Shown here: one piece after another, positions 11,616 to 22,158 of the stretch | Position numbering within the stretch: position 1 is the first letter of the stretch | Layout: every line of letters starts with the position of its first letter | NCBI GenBank assembly: GCA_025359865.1 | Contig: JANYDH010000158.1 | Span: 1 to 38,543 of the forward strand | Source: Actinomycetes bacterium | GTDB taxonomy: Bacteria > Actinomycetota > Acidimicrobiia > Acidimicrobiales > Ilumatobacteraceae | Length of the DNA stretch: 38,543 bases | Reading direction: 5' to 3' | Made by a program: the position numbers and the translations under genes | Notes under the pieces: generated by a model | Databases searched by the model: none | Told to the model about the DNA's origin: nothing | What the model saw: only the letters and a program-made list of their open reading frames with translations

Positions 11616-13066
11616 ATGCACGGCCGTCCCATCACCCAGTCCATCGGCGACACACACGCCAGCCACCCCAACCGGTGGCGCATCCTCGGCGTGCTCGTGC
11701 TCGTGCTCGCCCTGCTCGTCACATCGTGTTCGTCGGGCTTCTGCTCACCGCAGGAAGCATCGGCGACCGCTTCGGCCGCCGGCATGCACTCCTCGCCGGC
11801 CTGTTCACGTTCCTTGGCGGTTCCATCGTCGCCGCCACCGCAGGCTCGACGACGGCACTCATCGCCGGCCGCTGCATCATGGGCATCGGCGGCGCTCTGA
11901 TCATGCCGACCACGCTGTCGATCCTCGTCAACGTCTTCGGCGATCCCCGCGAACGCGCCAAAGCGATTGCCGGATGGACCGCCGCCAGTGGCGCCGGGAT
12001 TGCGCTCGGACCGATTGTCGGCGGTGCGTTGATGCGTAGCTTCTCGTGGTCATCGGTGTTCTGGATCAACGTGCCGTTGCTCGTCGCCGCGTTCATCGGC
12101 GCAGTGCACCTGGTTCCCGATTCACGCGACCCGCACGCCACCCGGCTCGACCCGATCGGTGCCGGCCTATCCATCGCCGGGATCAGCACACTCGTCTACG
12201 CCATCATCCAAGCCCCAGAGCGCGGATGGACTTCCACCGCCTCGGTCGTCAACTTCGCAGTCGGGTCTGCGATCGCAGTCGTATTCGTCGGCTGGGAGAT
12301 GCGCCGCGACGACCCGATGCTCGACATGACCCTGTTCCGCAACCGCAGCTTCTCGGCTGGCAGCATCGCCCTCGCCTTGCTGTTCTTCGCGATGGCCGGA
12401 ACTGTCTTCCTGCAAGCCCAATACCTGCAGTTCGTGCTGCAGTACACACCGCTCGCGGCCGGCTTCGCGCTCGTCCCCGCTGCGATCGGGATGCTGCTCG
12501 GCACCGGCGCCGGCGCACATCTCGCCGAGATGCACGGTGGGCGCATCGCCGTCACCGCCGTCACACTGATCGCCACCGCCGGCGTCGGCTCGGCCGTCAA
12601 CGACACGGTCCGCGAGTTCGGTGGCGCACTCGGCGTCGCCATCATCGGAAGCGTCGCCGCCACCAGCTACGCGACATCGATGCACGGCAAGCTCGACCAG
12701 TTCCCGAACCTCACCGCCACCGATCGCAGTCTGTTGGTCAACAACGTCGGCGCCGCAGTCAGCGCCAGTCAGCACCTCGACGCACAAGCCGACCAGGTCG
12801 CAGTAGCAGCCCGTACAGCGTTCGTGGACTCCATGCACAGCTCGCTGTGGATCGCCGTCGGCCTCGCGTTCTGCGCCGCCGTCGTGACCTTCACACAGCT
12901 CCCGCGCCAGGCGATGCACGGCGGACACGCTGGCCAGGGGGCGCCCGCTTCTGACGGTGTGCATGGCCGTCACGGTGCCGCCACCCACGCATGGCACCAC
13001 GCCGGTCACCGTCCACACGTCGCAGTGGCCGAGGCCACCACTTCGGGAGAGCTGTCGGCACCATGA
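11616..13066 (+). pseudogene. DHA2-type MFS drug exporter with two internal deletions
   Basis: ATG 11616 follows a good RBS (AAGGAG) and starts MHGRPITQSIGDTHASHPNR, then the first membrane helix. At about 11728 the frame changes and the sequence jumps to GLLLTAGSIGDRFGRRHALL (motif A of MFS), skipping TM1-TM2 residues such as the usual 'LDxTIVNVALP' segment. The main frame then runs to 13066. A second jump occurs near 12590, where AVTLIATAGVGSAVND joins the helix-11 region to the 'aGvGSAVND..REfGGALGVA' motif normally about 60-80 residues later. Family members have 14 helices and 480-520 aa. The C-terminus is His-rich (HGGHAGQG, HGRHGAATHAWHHAGHRPH), perhaps metal-binding. Activity is unlikely. 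Confidence 0.75.
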
Positions 13067-13879: not shown

Positions 13880-14248
13880 TCAGTAGTTGAATGTGAGCGC
13901 GCCGCCTTGGGTGAACTCGAGGAGCGATGGGACGCCTTTGACCTCGGCACCTTGCACCCAGTCCGCGTTCTCCAGGCCACGGCTCTTGACGCAGACGGGG
14001 CAGGCGTAGAACAGTCCGCCTCGTTCGATGTATTCGGCGTGGAGGTCGGCGATCGAGGGGGCGCCGGGAACCGAGATGCCCTCTACGTATCCGGTGGTGG
14101 CGACGTGTACGCCATCTTTGGTGAGCCACATCAGCGCCTGTTTCCCGGCGCGTAGCGATTCGACGCCGAGGAGGTAGCCGATGAGCACGGCCTCGGGGTC
14201 GTTGGTTCCGTGGGTTTGCCCGATCACCACTTTGTCATCTGTGGCCAT
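13880..14248 (-). CDS. DsrE-family sulfur-relay protein
   Basis: 122 aa from ATG 14248. It starts DDKVVIGQTHGTNDPEAVLI, has an alpha/beta fold pattern, and carries two cysteines in GLFYACPVCVKSRGL near residue 85, the position of the active-site Cys of DsrE/YchN proteins. Such proteins bind or transfer persulfide sulfur. It is the last gene of the leftward unit with the ArsR-rhodanese regulator and the ArsM-like methyltransferase, 60 bp downstream of the latter. This supports a role in thiol or persulfide handling. Confidence 0.85.
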   Translation of the reverse strand: MATDDKVVIGQTHGTNDPEAVLIGYLLGVESLRAGKQALMWLTKDGVHVATTGYVEGISVPGAPSIADLHAEYIERGGLFYACPVCVKSRGLENADWVQGAEVKGVPSLLEFTQGGALTFNY

Positions 14249-14308: not shown

Positions 14309-15088
14309 TCATCCGCGGATGGCGAGAAAGGCATAGCCGTAGACCTCGAATGACCGTGCTTGGGCTTCGCCGGTTGCACCGCCGAATGTGTCGACGGATG
14401 GTCCGATGTTGACCTGGTGGAAGCCTGAGTCTTCGAGCATCTGTTGCCAGCCCGCACGGGGCAGCCCTCCGGCAATTCAACCGGTCCACAGATCGACATC
14501 GCGCATCGCCTCGATGGGTACTGGTCTCCCGTTGGCGATGTCGGCGAATTGCAGCACACCGCCAGGGCGCAGCACCCTGAAGATCTCGGCGAAGACGGCC
14601 TGCTTGTCGACGCACAGGTTGATCACGCCGTTGGAGATGACAACATCGGCCCACCCAGTCTCGACGGGCATGGCTTCCGCGAGCCCCTCACGGAACTCGA
14701 CATGGCCGAAATGGAGTTGCTCGGCGGTGGCTCGTGATTTGGTGAGCATCTCGGACGTCATGTCGATCCCGACGACGGAGCCGGTCGGACCGGTTTGGGT
14801 AGCAGCGATGAATGAGTCGAAACCGGCGCCGGAGCCGACGTCAACGACACGCTCACCGGGTTCGATGCGGCGCAGTGAGAACGGGTTGCCGACACCGGCG
14901 AACGACTCGACCGCCCGATCCGGCAGGCCATCTACGACCACGCCGTCGTAGCCGAGGCGGGCAGCAAGTGGGCGACCGGTATGGAAGTGGTGAGCGCCGT
15001 GCGGGTCGAGGGCGACATCGCGGTACTTGTCTCGCACCTGAGTGCGTAGGGTGTCGACGTCGACGAGAGGATCGTGGGGCATGGTCAT
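14309..15088 (-). CDS. ArsM-like SAM methyltransferase, candidate selenoprotein (in-frame UGA, Sec204)
   Basis: ATG 15088 overlaps the upstream stop (ATGA). Motif I is VVDVGSGAGFDSF, followed by VVGIDMTSEML, DVVISNGVINLCVDK and IFRVLRPGGVLQFADI. This is the arsenite methyltransferase type, although arsenite itself is not proven as substrate. At codon 204 the frame reads DLWTG-UGA-IAGGL, where ArsM proteins have a conserved Cys (…C-I/V-A-G-A). After the UGA the same frame continues 55 residues with family character (GWQQMLEDSGF, FEVYGYAFLAIRG) to a normal UGA at 14309, giving the family length of 259 aa. A hairpin with a G in its apical loop starts right after the UGA. Either it is a selenoprotein or a nonsense mutant. 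The neighbours handle sulfur. Confidence 0.75.
14441..14479 (-). promoter_or_regulatory. SECIS-like hairpin at the in-frame UGA
   Basis: Reading leftward from the UGA (14479-14477), UUGCC (nt 2-6 after the UGA) can pair with GGCAA (29-33). Above it GCCC (15-18) pairs with GGGC (24-27), leaving a 5-nt apical loop CGUGC at 19-23. Bacterial SECIS elements have a short stem with a G in the apical loop about 16-37 nt after the UGA, which this satisfies. An 8-nt asymmetric bulge is a weakness. Confidence 0.5.
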
Positions 15089-15753
15089 TGTCCTGCTCCG
15101 ACCGCAATGGGCAGGCCAGCTCGTTTCCATTCGGGGTATCCGTCTTCGAGGCGTTTGGCGGCAAAACCTCGTCGGCGCAGTTGGCGCACGGCCTCATCGG
15201 CGTACACGCAGTAGGGGCCGCGGCAGTAGGCGACGATCTCTGTGTCCTTGGCGAGCGAACGCAGACGGCGAAGGTCGCTGACGGGGACGGACCGGGCACC
15301 GGGGATGTGGCCGGCCGCGTACTCGACGGCGGGGCGGACGTCGAGCACGACGACGTCACCGGCCTTGAGGCGGGCTTCAAGTTCGCGCCGGCTCACGGGT
15401 TCGAGAGCGGAGCGGTCTCCGACGTATGCGTCGGCAAGTTCGTTGATACCGGCTACATGTTCGGCGGCGACGTCGCGCATGGCTGCCCACATGTCACCGA
15501 TCCGTTCACTGGCCAGCATGTAGACGATTCGGGTGCCTTCTCGGCGGGTGCGCAGCACGCCGGCTCTAGCCATCGCCCGCAGGTGATGGGAGGTGTTGGC
15601 GACCCTTTGGTCGATCTCGGCGGCGATTTGTTCGACGGACCGTTCGCCCTGGGCGAGGACGTCGACGATCTCGGCTCGCCGCCCACTGGCCAACGCCCTC
15701 GCGACTTCGGCGAACGCGTCGAACAATGCATCCTTCGCTGCCCTATCTCCCAC
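15085..15753 (-). CDS. ArsR-type regulator fused to a rhodanese domain
   Basis: 222 aa from ATG 15753. Residues about 1-100 form an ArsR winged helix (ALASGRRAEIVDVLAQGERS, then NTSHHLRAMARAGVLRTRRE). Residues about 115-215 form a rhodanese domain with DVRPAVEYAAGHIPGA and the active-site loop VAYCRGPYCVYAD. The fusion suggests that a persulfide or oxidised sulfur species on the rhodanese Cys controls DNA binding. It is first in a leftward operon and divergent from the MBL-rhodanese operon. The intergenic region holds two matching palindromes, so it probably represses both arms. Confidence 0.9.
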   Translation of the reverse strand: MGDRAAKDALFDAFAEVARALASGRRAEIVDVLAQGERSVEQIAAEIDQRVANTSHHLRAMARAGVLRTRREGTRIVYMLASERIGDMWAAMRDVAAEHVAGINELADAYVGDRSALEPVSRRELEARLKAGDVVVLDVRPAVEYAAGHIPGARSVPVSDLRRLRSLAKDTEIVAYCRGPYCVYADEAVRQLRRRGFAAKRLEDGYPEWKRAGLPIAVGAGQ

Positions 15754-15773: not shown

Positions 15774-15797
15774 ATATTCAAACTACTACTTGAATAT
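15774..15797. promoter_or_regulatory. operator 1, ATTCAA-N8-TTGAAT
   Basis: This 24-bp near-perfect palindrome (ATATTCAA-N8-TTGAATAT) lies 21 bp upstream of the ArsR-rhodanese start. An identical-core site lies 40 bp away, the same helical face (about four turns). It is the most likely binding site for the divergent ArsR protein. Confidence 0.7.
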
Positions 15798-15813: not shown

Positions 15814-15837
15814 ATATTCAAGTAGTCATTTGAATCG
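15814..15837. promoter_or_regulatory. operator 2, ATTCAA-N8-TTGAAT
   Basis: It has the same core as operator 1 (arms 15816-15821 and 15830-15835). It lies 24 bp before the start of the 39-aa ORF that leads the rightward operon, so it is well placed to repress that side. Confidence 0.7.
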
Positions 15838-15983: not shown

Positions 15984-17330
15984 ATGAAGATTTACGACTT
16001 CGTCGATGAGGGTCTCGGGCATTCGTCGTATCTCATCGACATTGGCGATGGAACGATCGCTCTGGTAGACCCTCCCAGATTCCCGACCGCTCACGAGGCG
16101 CTCGCCGCGCATCACGGATCGCGGATCGCGTGGACGTTCGATACCCACTCGCACGCCGACTATGTGACGGGCAGCCCGGGACTCGCGGCGCGTCTCGGCG
16201 CGACGTTCGTCGCCCCGAACGCTTCTCGTCTCGAGACGCCACATCATCGGCTCGGCGACGGTGCGTCGATCGAGCTGGGAGGGAGCCTGCACATTGTTGC
16301 ACTAGCCACGCCCGGACATACGCCTGATCACCACGCGTACCTCCTTTGTCACGGCGACGATTCGGTTGGACTGTTCTCGGGCGGGTCGCTGATGGTCGGA
16401 ACAGTCGGACGCACCGACCTGTGCGGCCCGGAACTCGCAAACTCATTGGCCCACGACATGTTCCGATCGCTGCGCCGCTTCGATGACCTTCCCAACGACC
16501 TCACCGTCTACCCCACGCACGGTGCCGGTTCGTTCTGCTCCGCACCGGGATCGTCACAGCGCACCACTACCCTCGGACATGAACGCGCTGGGAACGCGCT
16601 GTTCGCGATCACCAACGAGGACCACTTCGTCACTCAATTGCTCGCTGGGTTCGGCACCTTTCCCACCTACTTCCGGCGCCTACCCGAACTCAACAGGCTC
16701 GGACCCCGCCATTTCGACACGGTCCCGCGTCTCGCGCTCCTTGGAACCGATGACATCGACCGTCACCTCGCGACCGGTGGCGTAGTCGCCGATGTCCGCC
16801 CGGCCGCGGCGTTCGCGGCCGGTCATATTCCGGGATCGATGTCGAACACACTTCGCCCAGTATTCGCCAGTTGGCTCGGCTGGCTGGTCGAACCGGACAG
16901 ACCAATCGCGTTCATCCTCGATGAGTCTCAGGACCGCAACGAGTTGGTCCGACAGTGCCTCGACGTCGGCCACGAAATATTGATCGGTGAGGTCTCCGGC
17001 GGCCTCGACACCTGGACAGCGTCGGGTCGGCCGGTGGCCACGATCCCACTCGTAGGTCCCAACGCCATGCAAGGACGAGTGGTCGACGTCCGCCAGACCA
17101 ACGAGTACGCGACCGGACACGTTCCCGGAGCAACCAACATCGAACTCAGTTCGATCACCACTACCACCGTGCCGGCCGGCCCGTTGACGCTCATGTGCGG
17201 CCACGGAGAACGCGCCATGACCGCAGCCAGCCTCCTCGCCGCCACGGGTCACAACGATCTGGTCGTGCTCGACGGCGGACCCGACACATGGTCGACAGCC
17301 ACTGGTATCCCGCTGGAGAGCGGACAATGA
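15984..17330 (+). CDS. MBL-fold hydrolase with two rhodanese domains (persulfide dioxygenase/BlrB-like)
   Basis: 448 aa. The N-terminal MBL domain has the metal motif THSHADYV near residue 53, GHTPDHHAYLL, VGRTDL and YPTHGAG, arranged as in persulfide dioxygenase/glyoxalase II-like enzymes. Two rhodanese-like domains follow. The first (VADVRPAAAFAAGHIPG) lacks the catalytic Cys (FILDESQDRN). The second (VVDVRQTNEYATGHVPGATN) has it in LMCGHGERAMT near residue 405. The expected role is oxidation or transfer of sulfane sulfur. Its TGA overlaps the ATG of the MFS gene, and it is under the divergent ArsR operators. Confidence 0.88.
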   Translation: MKIYDFVDEGLGHSSYLIDIGDGTIALVDPPRFPTAHEALAAHHGSRIAWTFDTHSHADYVTGSPGLAARLGATFVAPNASRLETPHHRLGDGASIELGGSLHIVALATPGHTPDHHAYLLCHGDDSVGLFSGGSLMVGTVGRTDLCGPELANSLAHDMFRSLRRFDDLPNDLTVYPTHGAGSFCSAPGSSQRTTTLGHERAGNALFAITNEDHFVTQLLAGFGTFPTYFRRLPELNRLGPRHFDTVPRLALLGTDDIDRHLATGGVVADVRPAAAFAAGHIPGSMSNTLRPVFASWLGWLVEPDRPIAFILDESQDRNELVRQCLDVGHEILIGEVSGGLDTWTASGRPVATIPLVGPNAMQGRVVDVRQTNEYATGHVPGATNIELSSITTTTVPAGPLTLMCGHGERAMTAASLLAATGHNDLVVLDGGPDTWSTATGIPLESGQ

Positions 17331-18595
17331 GCGCACCCACCACTCCGGCGGCAACCACTATTTCGCCGTTACGGCTCGGATTGCGCGAAAATCTCGCTCA
17401 GTTCTCGCTCCTCGTCGGGGTCAACGCACTCGTCGGCGGCATGATCGGCCAGGAACGCACCGTCCTGCCGTTGCTTGCCAAGCAAGAGTTCGGGCTCACC
17501 GCGTTCACCGCGACGCTGACCTTCATCGTCGCCTTCGGGGCCGTCAAGGCGGTGACGAACTTCTTCGCCGGCACCCTCTCCGACCGGTACGGCCGCAAAC
17601 CGGTTCTCGTCGCCGGGTGGATCATCGCCCTCCCGATCCCGCTGCTACTGATCTGGGCACCGAACTGGGGATGGGTGATATTCGCCAACGTCATGCTCGG
17701 CGTCAACCAAGGCCTCACGTGGTCAACCACAGTGATCATGAAGATCGACCTCGTCGGCCCGACTAAACGCGGCTTCGCGATGGGGATGAACGAAGCCGCC
17801 GGCTACGGCGCGGTCGCCATCACCGCGCTCGCCACCGGGTACATCGCGCAACACGCCGGCCTGCGCCCGGAGCCGTTCTTCCTCGGCATCGCCTACGCCG
17901 GGCTGGGTCTCGGCCTGTCGGTGTTCTTCGTACACGAGACCCGCGGCCACGCCCGCCACGAAGCTGCCAATCATGTTGCCACAATCGAAGCCCATCACGA
18001 CGCGTTGACCACCGGCGAGATATTCCGTCTCACGTCGTTCAGCGACAAGGCGCTGTCGTCGTGCTCGCAGGCTGGACTGGTCAACAACTTGAACGACGGT
18101 CTCGCGTGGGGGCTGTTCCCGATCTTTTTCGCCGGCGCCGGGCTCTCCATCGGGAGGATCGGTGTGCTCGCCGCGCTCTACCCCGCGGTGTGGGGTCTCG
18201 GCCAGCTCTACACGGGAGGACTCTCCGATCGCATCGGACGAAAGCCACTCATTGTCGGTGGCATGCTCACCCAGGCCGTCGCCATCGCATGGATTGCCGC
18301 CACGGGTAGTTTCTCGGCATGGGCGGTCGGTGCGATGGTTCTTGGGGCCGGCACCGCGATGGTCTACCCGACGCTGCTCGCGGCGATCGGTGACGTCGCC
18401 CACCCGACATGGCGGGCACGATCCGTCGGCGTCTACCGGCTGTGGCGCGATGGCGGCTTCGCCATCGGCGCGCTCCTCGCCGGAATCCTCGCCGACCTCA
18501 TCTCCATCCCGGCTGCGATCTACGCCGTCGCCGCACTCACCGCGGTCTCTGGCCTGGTAGTTGCCGTGCGCATGTACGAAACCCATCCGCGATGA
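17327..18595 (+). CDS. MFS permease of the sulfur operon
   Basis: 422 aa from ATG 17327, which overlaps the upstream stop. It has 12 predicted helices, motif A as GTLSDRYGRKPVLVAGW and its repeat GGLSDRIGRKPLIVGGML between the halves, and VNQGLTWSTTVIMKIDLVGP after helix 4. Such permeases occur next to rhodanese and MBL genes in many bacteria; the substrate (perhaps a sulfur oxyanion or thiol) is inference. It is intact, and its ATGA overlap with the following rhodanese shows one operon. Confidence 0.88.
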   Translation: MSAPTTPAATTISPLRLGLRENLAQFSLLVGVNALVGGMIGQERTVLPLLAKQEFGLTAFTATLTFIVAFGAVKAVTNFFAGTLSDRYGRKPVLVAGWIIALPIPLLLIWAPNWGWVIFANVMLGVNQGLTWSTTVIMKIDLVGPTKRGFAMGMNEAAGYGAVAITALATGYIAQHAGLRPEPFFLGIAYAGLGLGLSVFFVHETRGHARHEAANHVATIEAHHDALTTGEIFRLTSFSDKALSSCSQAGLVNNLNDGLAWGLFPIFFAGAGLSIGRIGVLAALYPAVWGLGQLYTGGLSDRIGRKPLIVGGMLTQAVAIAWIAATGSFSAWAVGAMVLGAGTAMVYPTLLAAIGDVAHPTWRARSVGVYRLWRDGGFAIGALLAGILADLISIPAAIYAVAALTAVSGLVVAVRMYETHPR

Positions 18596-21525: not shown

Positions 21526-21562
21526 TTGCAGCATCGGCTGCATGGTGTATGGTTGGTGTATG
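21526..21562 (+). promoter_or_regulatory. vapBC promoter and direct-repeat operator; probable leaderless start
   Basis: TTGCAG (21526-21531) and TATGGT (21548-21553), 16 bp apart, place the transcription start at or next to ATG 21560. GGTGTATG occurs twice, 11 bp apart (21544-21551 and 21555-21562), the second covering the start codon. There is no purine-rich RBS. This fits a leaderless, autoregulated TA mRNA. Confidence 0.5.
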
Positions 21563-21763
21563 TCACGCACCAACATAGATCTCGACGACGCGGCGTGCCA
21601 GGCCATCATGGAGCGCTACCGCCTGGTTTCCAAGCGCGACGCCGTCAACCTGGCCCTGCGTCGCCTCGCGGCGGAGCCTCTCGATCCCGATGACGCTCGG
21701 CGTCTGCGGGGTTCGGGATGGGTCGGTGATCTCGACCAGATGCGGGCCATTCGCGCCGGATGA
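21560..21763 (+). CDS. vapB: VapB antitoxin
   Basis: 67 aa. MSRTNIDLDDAACQAIMERY, then SKRDAVNLALRRLA, is a typical ribbon-helix-helix antitoxin start ('RTNIDlDd.l....m...gl.tKreaV..Alr.l'). The C-terminal LRGSGWVGDLDQMR matches the toxin-binding tail 'GsgWeGdLd.mR'. Its stop overlaps the vapC ATG. Confidence 0.93.
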   Translation: MSRTNIDLDDAACQAIMERYRLVSKRDAVNLALRRLAAEPLDPDDARRLRGSGWVGDLDQMRAIRAG

Positions 21764-22158
21764 TCATCATCGACACGTCGGCCTGGATCGAGTTCCTACG
21801 TAACACCGGGTCCGAGGTGTGCAACACCGTCGACGATCTACTCAGCGCCGACCTCGCCATCTGCGACGCCATCAGCATGGAAGTGCTCGCCGGCGCCCGC
21901 GACGAGCAGCACCTGGCCCAGCTTCGCGGCTTGCTCGCCCGAGCCAGGTTGATGCCGATCATCGCCGAGGACTACGACCAAGCCGCTGCGCTCTACCGGA
22001 CGTGCCGTCGCAATGGAGAGACCGTACGGAAGCTCATCGATTGTCTCATCGCAGCGGTCGCCATACGGTCAAGGACGCCGGTCCTCCACGCCGACGCCGA
22101 CTTCGCAGCGCTGGCCCGGCATACGCCACTGGCCACGCACGCCAAATCCGCCGGGTAG
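21760..22158 (+). CDS. vapC: VapC PIN-domain toxin
   Basis: 132 aa, coupled to vapB by ATGA. It starts MIIIDTSAWIEFLRNTGS. Acidic residues are D5, E in ISMEVLAGARDE, D in VRKLIDCLIAAVA and D in VLHADADFAALA. It is the intact canonical VapC of the 'IDTSAWIEFLR' type, a Mg-dependent RNase. This is the cleanest complete TA pair in the window. Confidence 0.93.
   Translation: MIIIDTSAWIEFLRNTGSEVCNTVDDLLSADLAICDAISMEVLAGARDEQHLAQLRGLLARARLMPIIAEDYDQAAALYRTCRRNGETVRKLIDCLIAAVAIRSRTPVLHADADFAALARHTPLATHAKSAG

Follow-up and report, generated by a model that had tools for sequence, protein, structure and literature searches.

A predicted selenocysteine-containing methyltransferase with an ArsM fold and two replaced arsenic ligands, encoded beside rhodanese and DsrE genes in an actinobacterium

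The window analysed here is a stretch of 38,543 nucleotides of an actinobacterial draft genome (GCA_025359865.1, contig JANYDH010000158.1). Its minus strand carries, at 14309-15082, a gene for an ArsM-like SAM methyltransferase with a predicted selenocysteine (257 amino acids and a TGA stop), which is delineated by translation, by dN/dS and by a 103-bit match to Pfam Methyltransf_31; the only Pfam families matched are methyltransferases. The frame, read from 15082 to 14310, comprises 257 codons, starts MPHDPLVDVDTLRTQVRDKYRDVALDPHGAHHFHTG and contains a single internal TGA, codon 202 (14477-14479, minus strand), with no further stops in its translation. On the basis of translation and of alignments to homologues and PDB chains, this UGA is read as Sec202 and is aligned with Cys224 of CmArsM. 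It had been described before as codon 204, a number obtained by counting from an alternative ATG at 15088 instead of from 15082. An I-A-G-G motif follows the codon immediately and, as also described, the frame continues for 55 residues (203-257) to its normal end. The gene exceeds the boundary of 14441 given previously, because its terminator TGA sits at 14309-14311.

The methyltransferase gene lies in an apparent operon, with an ArsR-type regulator fused to rhodanese upstream (15085-15753, minus strand; Pfam HTH_5 and Rhodanese, with NCBIfam HTH_metalloreg over its cut-off) and a DsrE-family protein downstream (13880-14248, minus strand; Pfam DsrE at 29.1 bits, cut-off 22.7). A divergent operon on the plus strand encodes a protein (15984-17330; Pfam Rhodanese twice, and NCBIfam GSH_gloB at 72 bits, below cut-off, over residues 17-179) that has two rhodanese stretches towards its C terminus and an N-terminal part probably of the metallo-beta-lactamase fold (MBL), and that we take to resemble persulfide dioxygenase; an MFS transporter follows it (17327-18595; start codon inferred, Pfam MFS_1 at 158 bits). 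Between the two operons, a motif scan identified two perfect inverted repeats of the form ATTCAA-N8-TTGAAT (15776-15795 and 15816-15835), likely operators, of which none would be expected by chance in the window. The exact palindrome occurs at three of the 116 loci scanned: the window's own (L047), L021, which has a single copy immediately upstream of ArsR-rhodanese, and L083, where two copies with the same 40-base spacing lie beside ArsR-rhodanese. It was not found at other ArsR-rhodanese loci of that set, such as L022, L078 and L085. The preliminary description had proposed an ArsR-rhodanese/DsrE operon devoted to reactive sulfur; the genes are confirmed by Pfam, whilst their context makes a link to reactive sulfur plausible. 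Taken together, the ArsR-rhodanese, the rhodanese, the DsrE and the persulfide-dioxygenase-like proteins point to sulfane sulfur. Elsewhere in the window, an MFS gene at 11616-13066 may be broken near its start, as a hydrophobic start lies in an ORF (11616-11900) in another frame than the MFS_1 domain (ORF 11675-13066, Pfam 106.5 bits), and Pfam matches at 1553-2226 and 21542-22158 (Phd/YefM plus PIN, VapB plus PIN) indicate two likely toxin-antitoxin pairs of type II.

This arrangement is shared by part of the family. Amongst 27 neighbourhoods of related genes, ArsR-rhodanese is adjacent in nine (and lies several kb away in L083), MBL-rhodanese is near in six, an MFS gene in eight and a DsrE match in five. 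At least one of these four cluster genes is found in 13 neighbourhoods and none in the other 14, several neighbourhoods ending at a contig edge, and thus the sulfur link of the methyltransferase is not universal. Four of the five DsrE matches are weak (31-38% identity) and may therefore be paralogues. Three of the nine adjacent ArsR-rhodanese cases accompany forms with Cys at codon 202 (L086, L091 and L094), so that this context goes with the subfamily and not with selenocysteine alone. No arsenic transporter or arsenate reductase was found among 15 neighbour proteins scanned. Other genes observed at these loci include an ArsM-like methyltransferase that precedes the Sec gene at L084 (5143-6303, with a cupin domain) and L026 (2973-3602), an OsmC-family gene nearby in L084, an additional methyltransferase gene next to the cluster at L022 (2437-3222) and L085 (8369-9145), and TauE sulfite-exporter-family genes near the cluster in L085 and L021.

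Codon 202 was read by alignment in 27 relatives from the genome_contigs collection and at 30 loci among the matches listed for 395 genomes of the class. UGA occupies this codon in at least 22 genomes of the class, the window genome included, and at nine named genome_contigs loci (L020-L026, L029 and L039). In a tree of 57 rows, site 202 is U in 37, C in 20 and nothing else; every U row has the SNG-type motif, as do seven of the C rows, the remaining 13 having the canonical SNC. Site 202 is likewise invariant in a subset alignment of 43 rows, A1, when TGA is read as Cys. The Cys/UGA exchange sought among homologues is thus present, and the UGA falls, as had been proposed, where the family carries Cys before I/V-A-G-A/G. 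The tree omitted L047 (the query itself), L103 (the same gene as L029), L027, L031, L036, L037, L039, L044, L045, L046, L060, L070 and L071; of these L039, L060, L070 and L071 have UGA and the remainder, L047 and L103 aside, have Cys or do not reach the site. The SNC rows all group to the same side of a branch with an SH-aLRT of 92, and the SNG clade containing the window methyltransferase has a support of 98. Cys forms arise within this clade at two places (L057, and L062/L063/L065/L066), a pattern that fits two losses of selenocysteine in what is a quick tree with many weak forks. A tblastn search in plasmids (617 records) recovered relatives of less than 60% identity only. Many stand-alone ArsM-like frames that share the position of the UGA were also identified in the phylum to which the Brocadiales locus belongs (L101, L102, L104-L108, L110-L112 and L029/L103). 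These resemble the window gene in their SNG-type motif and in the hairpins of 7 to 9 pairs that follow the UGA, are ~37-47% identical to it and extend the Sec methyltransferase family beyond Actinomycetota.

The best structural match of an AlphaFold2 model of the methyltransferase (pLDDT 93.2) is ArsM 4fr0 (Foldseek E 1.1e-17; VIA-align Z 26.3, rmsd 2.3, 215 residues, 28% identity). Three ArsM chains reach Z >=25 in the structure ranking and the best non-ArsM entry 21.8, further ArsM entries (20.4-20.6, and 19.7 for human AS3MT) being level with other methyltransferases. In a phmmer alignment to the PDB, U202, Gly152 and Val64 are matched with Cys224, Cys174 and position 72 of CmArsM, respectively, residue numbers having been counted from the printed alignment and position 72 being Ala in chain 5eg5, a C72A mutant. 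According to the cited passages of PMC3877260, the arsenic sites of CmArsM are Cys72, Cys174 and Cys224. An active site unlike that of classic ArsM had been suggested, and two of these three positions are indeed replaced (Val64 and Gly152), as a consequence of which Sec/Cys202 is the only one of the three arsenic ligands retained in the subfamily. Of the 43 rows of A1, 34 have Gly and nine have Cys at position 152; at position 64, Val occurs in 31 of the 34 Gly152 rows and Cys in eight of the nine Cys152 rows. In the tree, all 37 UGA rows have Gly152. The SNC motif of ArsM is SNG in the window protein, with Cys157 five residues on, just as the preliminary description had noted. Cys157 was considered as an obligate partner of the selenocysteine and is ruled out as such, since it is present in 23 of the 37 UGA rows and absent from 14. 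In common with ArsM (CmArsM 4fr0, AS3MT 8xt7 and NF008823), the window protein has the fold, the SAM motifs and the ligand of the Cys224 type, here as Sec and in some relatives as Cys. In contrast to ArsM, it has Gly and Val at the positions of the Cys174-type (SNC) and Cys72-type (GCGNP) ligands, scores 211.9 bits against a cut-off of 263 for the arsenite methyltransferase model NF008823, and belongs to a subfamily found partly in a sulfur-type gene context. By these sequence-based tests, it would not qualify as a classical As(III) methyltransferase.

One tentative reading is that the enzyme nonetheless methylates a metalloid, as a selenocysteine version of ArsM in which Sec202, together with Cys157 or an outside thiol, would bind arsenic, antimony or tellurium, or would perhaps perform only the step on singly held dimethylarsenite. 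Its nearest relatives in both fold and sequence are ArsM proteins, the regulator is of the ArsR type, the Sec gene of two loci (L084 and L026) has a canonical ArsM-like gene immediately upstream, and the passages cited from PMC3877260 describe dimethylarsenite as bound by a single Cys in CmArsM. However, the same passages report no activity on arsenite or methylarsenite for the C174A and C224A variants of CmArsM, and the residue equivalent to Cys174 is the one that is Gly throughout the UGA rows. Cys157 is lacking in more than a third of those rows (14/37), and the scanned neighbours offer no arsenic transporter or arsenate reductase.

A bacterial SECIS hairpin lies directly after the UGA and has a G early in its loop. 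Following the UGA of the window gene, a SECIS-like hairpin, GCCC-CGUGC-GGGC, can be formed at 14450-14462 on the minus strand, from +15 to +27 relative to the UGA, with four pairs and the loop at +19 to +23. The previously reported stem-loop with CGUGC at nucleotides 19-23 is thus present, but its stability is not above that of shuffled sequences: the folded stretch that includes it has a z of 0.81, and 162 of 200 shuffles are at least as stable. Hairpins were also scored across the family in all rows that reach the site (41 UGA and 25 Cys; L027 and L046 fall short of it), with 300 rounds of synonymous codon resampling as the expectation. As this score takes unbroken stems only, stems with a bulge or mismatch are undercounted. 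UGA rows scored 17.15 on average, a value reached in none of the 300 rounds, against 12.38 +/- 0.47 on resampling. Cys rows scored 9.72 against 9.46 (109/300 reaching), and the seven Cys rows with SNG 9.29 against 9.01 (120/300). UGA rows differ from all Cys rows (Mann-Whitney p 6e-9) and from the seven SNG Cys rows (p 0.0009), comparisons in which the rows, being related, are not independent events. The window's own hairpin group of 14 rows displays no excess (12.07 against 12.78 resampled, 242/300 reaching) and, for this reason, the hairpin alone proves nothing for the window gene. Outside this group, UGA rows have stems of 5 to 10 pairs, including ten-pair stems with a GGA loop in L073 and L074 and eight-pair stems with GGA in L110 and L112. 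In 13 rows selected by a CGUGC or CGUGU loop at +17 to +21 (the loop offset varies among family rows), the pair +11:+27, as counted by script, is G-C in nine, C-G in three and broken in one. Across the family as a whole, SECIS-like hairpins after the UGA are thus in excess of what codon choice predicts, with the window's close group not above that expectation.

The genome that encodes the methyltransferase (4.99 Mb in 219 contigs, 96.6% complete) contains the machinery expected of a selenoprotein-producing bacterium. A search for selA, selB, selC and selD had been proposed, and all four are present over their cut-offs: tRNA-Sec (selC), which ARAGORN also calls SeC with anticodon tca, at 64.7 bits (gathering score 47); selB at 281.6 bits and the adjoining selA at 399.8 bits on contig C83; and selD at 309.8 bits. 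The two selC matches represent one identical locus at overlapping contig ends. A second selenoprotein of this genome is likely to be a homologue of the formate dehydrogenase alpha subunit, FdhA (G000:C169:20408-22279, L113), which contains one in-frame TGA in the context CNRTUHAPSV, the usual Sec site of formate dehydrogenase. This homologue scores 645.3 bits, below the cut-off of 666.25, and profile positions 1-51 match separately ~2.6 kb away.

Across the class, co-occurrence was assessed in 77 genomes hand-picked from the 395, consisting of 25 with a TGA-containing match among the matches listed, seven with the Cys form and 45 controls. Those controls lack a close homologue and come from the same family and order as the window genome, most UGA genomes belonging to other families of the class. 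G218 was counted as a Cys form despite also having a TGA-containing paralogue, and G070, G156 and G215 were included on the presence of a TGA anywhere within the match. SelA exceeds its cut-off in 23 of the 25 UGA-form genomes, two of the seven Cys-form genomes (G083 and G330, in which the methyltransferase is of the Cys form despite the presence of selA) and 28 of the 45 controls (one-sided Fisher, 0.002 for UGA against Cys genomes and 0.006 against controls). The two UGA-form genomes in which no selA over the cut-off was found, G377 and G361, are 56% and 60% complete, respectively. A further selA match, G276:C24:10358-11668, has one in-frame TGA and may represent a disrupted copy or an error in the draft. 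Since the controls differ in family from most UGA genomes, and selA is present in 18 of the 19 controls that share the family of the window genome, this co-occurrence constitutes weak evidence. TRNA-Sec over the cut-off is present in seven of nine named genomes with the UGA form and was not found in the assemblies of the other two, G398 and G400.

Over the 54 codons that follow the UGA, dN/dS between the window gene and L020, L021, L022 and L023 is 0.17, 0.12, 0.13 and 0.22, respectively, compared with 0.07, 0.09, 0.08 and 0.14 for the same pairs before the UGA, values that indicate purifying selection on the tail in all four pairs. This bears directly on the very improbable alternative that the UGA is a true stop, which would leave a truncated methyltransferase of 201 residues with the tail as a remnant or as the product of rare readthrough. 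The normal end of the gene is likewise a TGA and the hairpin of the window is weak, yet such an alternative is contradicted by the constraint on the tail, by the Cys forms, which read straight through the site, and by the restriction of that site to U or C. A sequencing error or pseudogene, conceivable in a draft of 219 contigs, is scarcely credible and is rejected on the grounds of tail selection and of recurrence of the same UGA in at least 21 further genomes of the class and at the nine named loci, the frame also having no second stop. The reading of the UGA at 14477-14479 as a predicted selenocysteine is consequently well supported by comparative evidence. UGA codon 202 would be decoded by SelB and tRNA-Sec, probably aided by the hairpin just 3′ of it.

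Proteins of the ArsM type that contain selenocysteine are, as a kind, already known. Table 1 of PMC9312934 lists an arsenite methyltransferase selenoprotein (PRK11873) as 'experimentally verified', a GOS survey contains eight arsenite methyltransferase selenoprotein sequences (PMC2398784), and methyltransferase selenoproteins are described from algae (PMC2375036), in each case as given in the passages cited. The selenoproteins of PMC9312934 and PMC2398784 resemble the window protein in kind, as Sec in an ArsM-like methyltransferase, a comparison made without their Sec motif, and the cited parts of these two papers make no mention of the present operon. A literature search returned general listings of ArsM selenoproteins and unrelated papers, with nothing on the present subfamily among the listings, although absence from print is not thereby proven. 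The best NCBIfam models for the window protein are ArsM_AhpD_UU (222.5 bits), arsenite methyltransferase (NF008823, see above), ArsM_DUF2284_UU (200.3) and MTase_UXPK_star (196.1), and none of the best 25 of the 36 models matched is over its cut-off, as a result of which genes of this type risk annotation as truncated. ArsM_AhpD_UU, ArsM_DUF2284_UU and MTase_UXPK_star are by name fusions or double selenoproteins, of which the window protein matches the methyltransferase part only. These three models (NF041537, NF041536 and NF047649, respectively), which are matched over residues 8-226, have cut-offs of 510, 575 and 460, far above the scores obtained. The ArsM_AhpD_UU match covers profile positions 9-227 of 345 at less than half of the 510 bits required, and Pfam detects no AhpD domain. 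In the phylum of G402, 59 of 199 genomes match ArsM_AhpD_UU at E 1e-45 and none over the cut-off. What looks new is a stand-alone subfamily in which two arsenic ligands have been lost and Sec alone is kept, and some members of which lie in a sulfur-type cluster.

It is thus quite probable, judging from comparison of the recoding site, the selection on the tail, the ArsM fold, the loss of ligands and the context in part of the family, that the gene encodes a selenoprotein with Sec202 and an ArsM fold from which two ligands have been lost. From this we infer the presence of selenium in the protein, together with the substrate, chemistry and regulation proposed below. With Val64 and Gly152 in the ligand positions, the site would offer a single selenolate, plus Cys157 in some members, and such a selenolate would suit a substrate that requires one bond only. 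Methylation of sulfur or selenium is placed first, with a metalloid as an equal rival, because of the sulfur-type cluster and the single selenolate; the assignment of a sulfur or selenium substrate nevertheless remains speculative. The selenolate would hold a soft atom needing just one bond, most likely sulfane sulfur or selenium handed over by the cluster's sulfurtransferases, or alternatively a metalloid that has been methylated beforehand. Sec202 would present the held atom in line to the methyl group of SAM, and a thiol would then free the methylated product. In its possible, though doubtful, full form, this scheme has Sec202 taking sulfur from a rhodanese/DsrE relay, SAM methylating it and a volatile methyl chalcogenide being released. 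Control of both divergent operons probably lies with the ArsR-rhodanese regulator, acting via the two palindromes.

The role of Sec in ArsM-like selenoproteins is left unexplained in the passages cited above. It should be directly testable here, since the site is stripped to Sec alone and natural Cys versions are available for comparison. If the sulfur-based proposal is true, the family would represent an offshoot of the ArsM fold, based on Sec, that abandoned arsenic and became part of persulfide detoxification controlled by an ArsR-rhodanese switch, and the use of selenium would be tied to the handling of reactive sulfur in this class of Actinomycetota.
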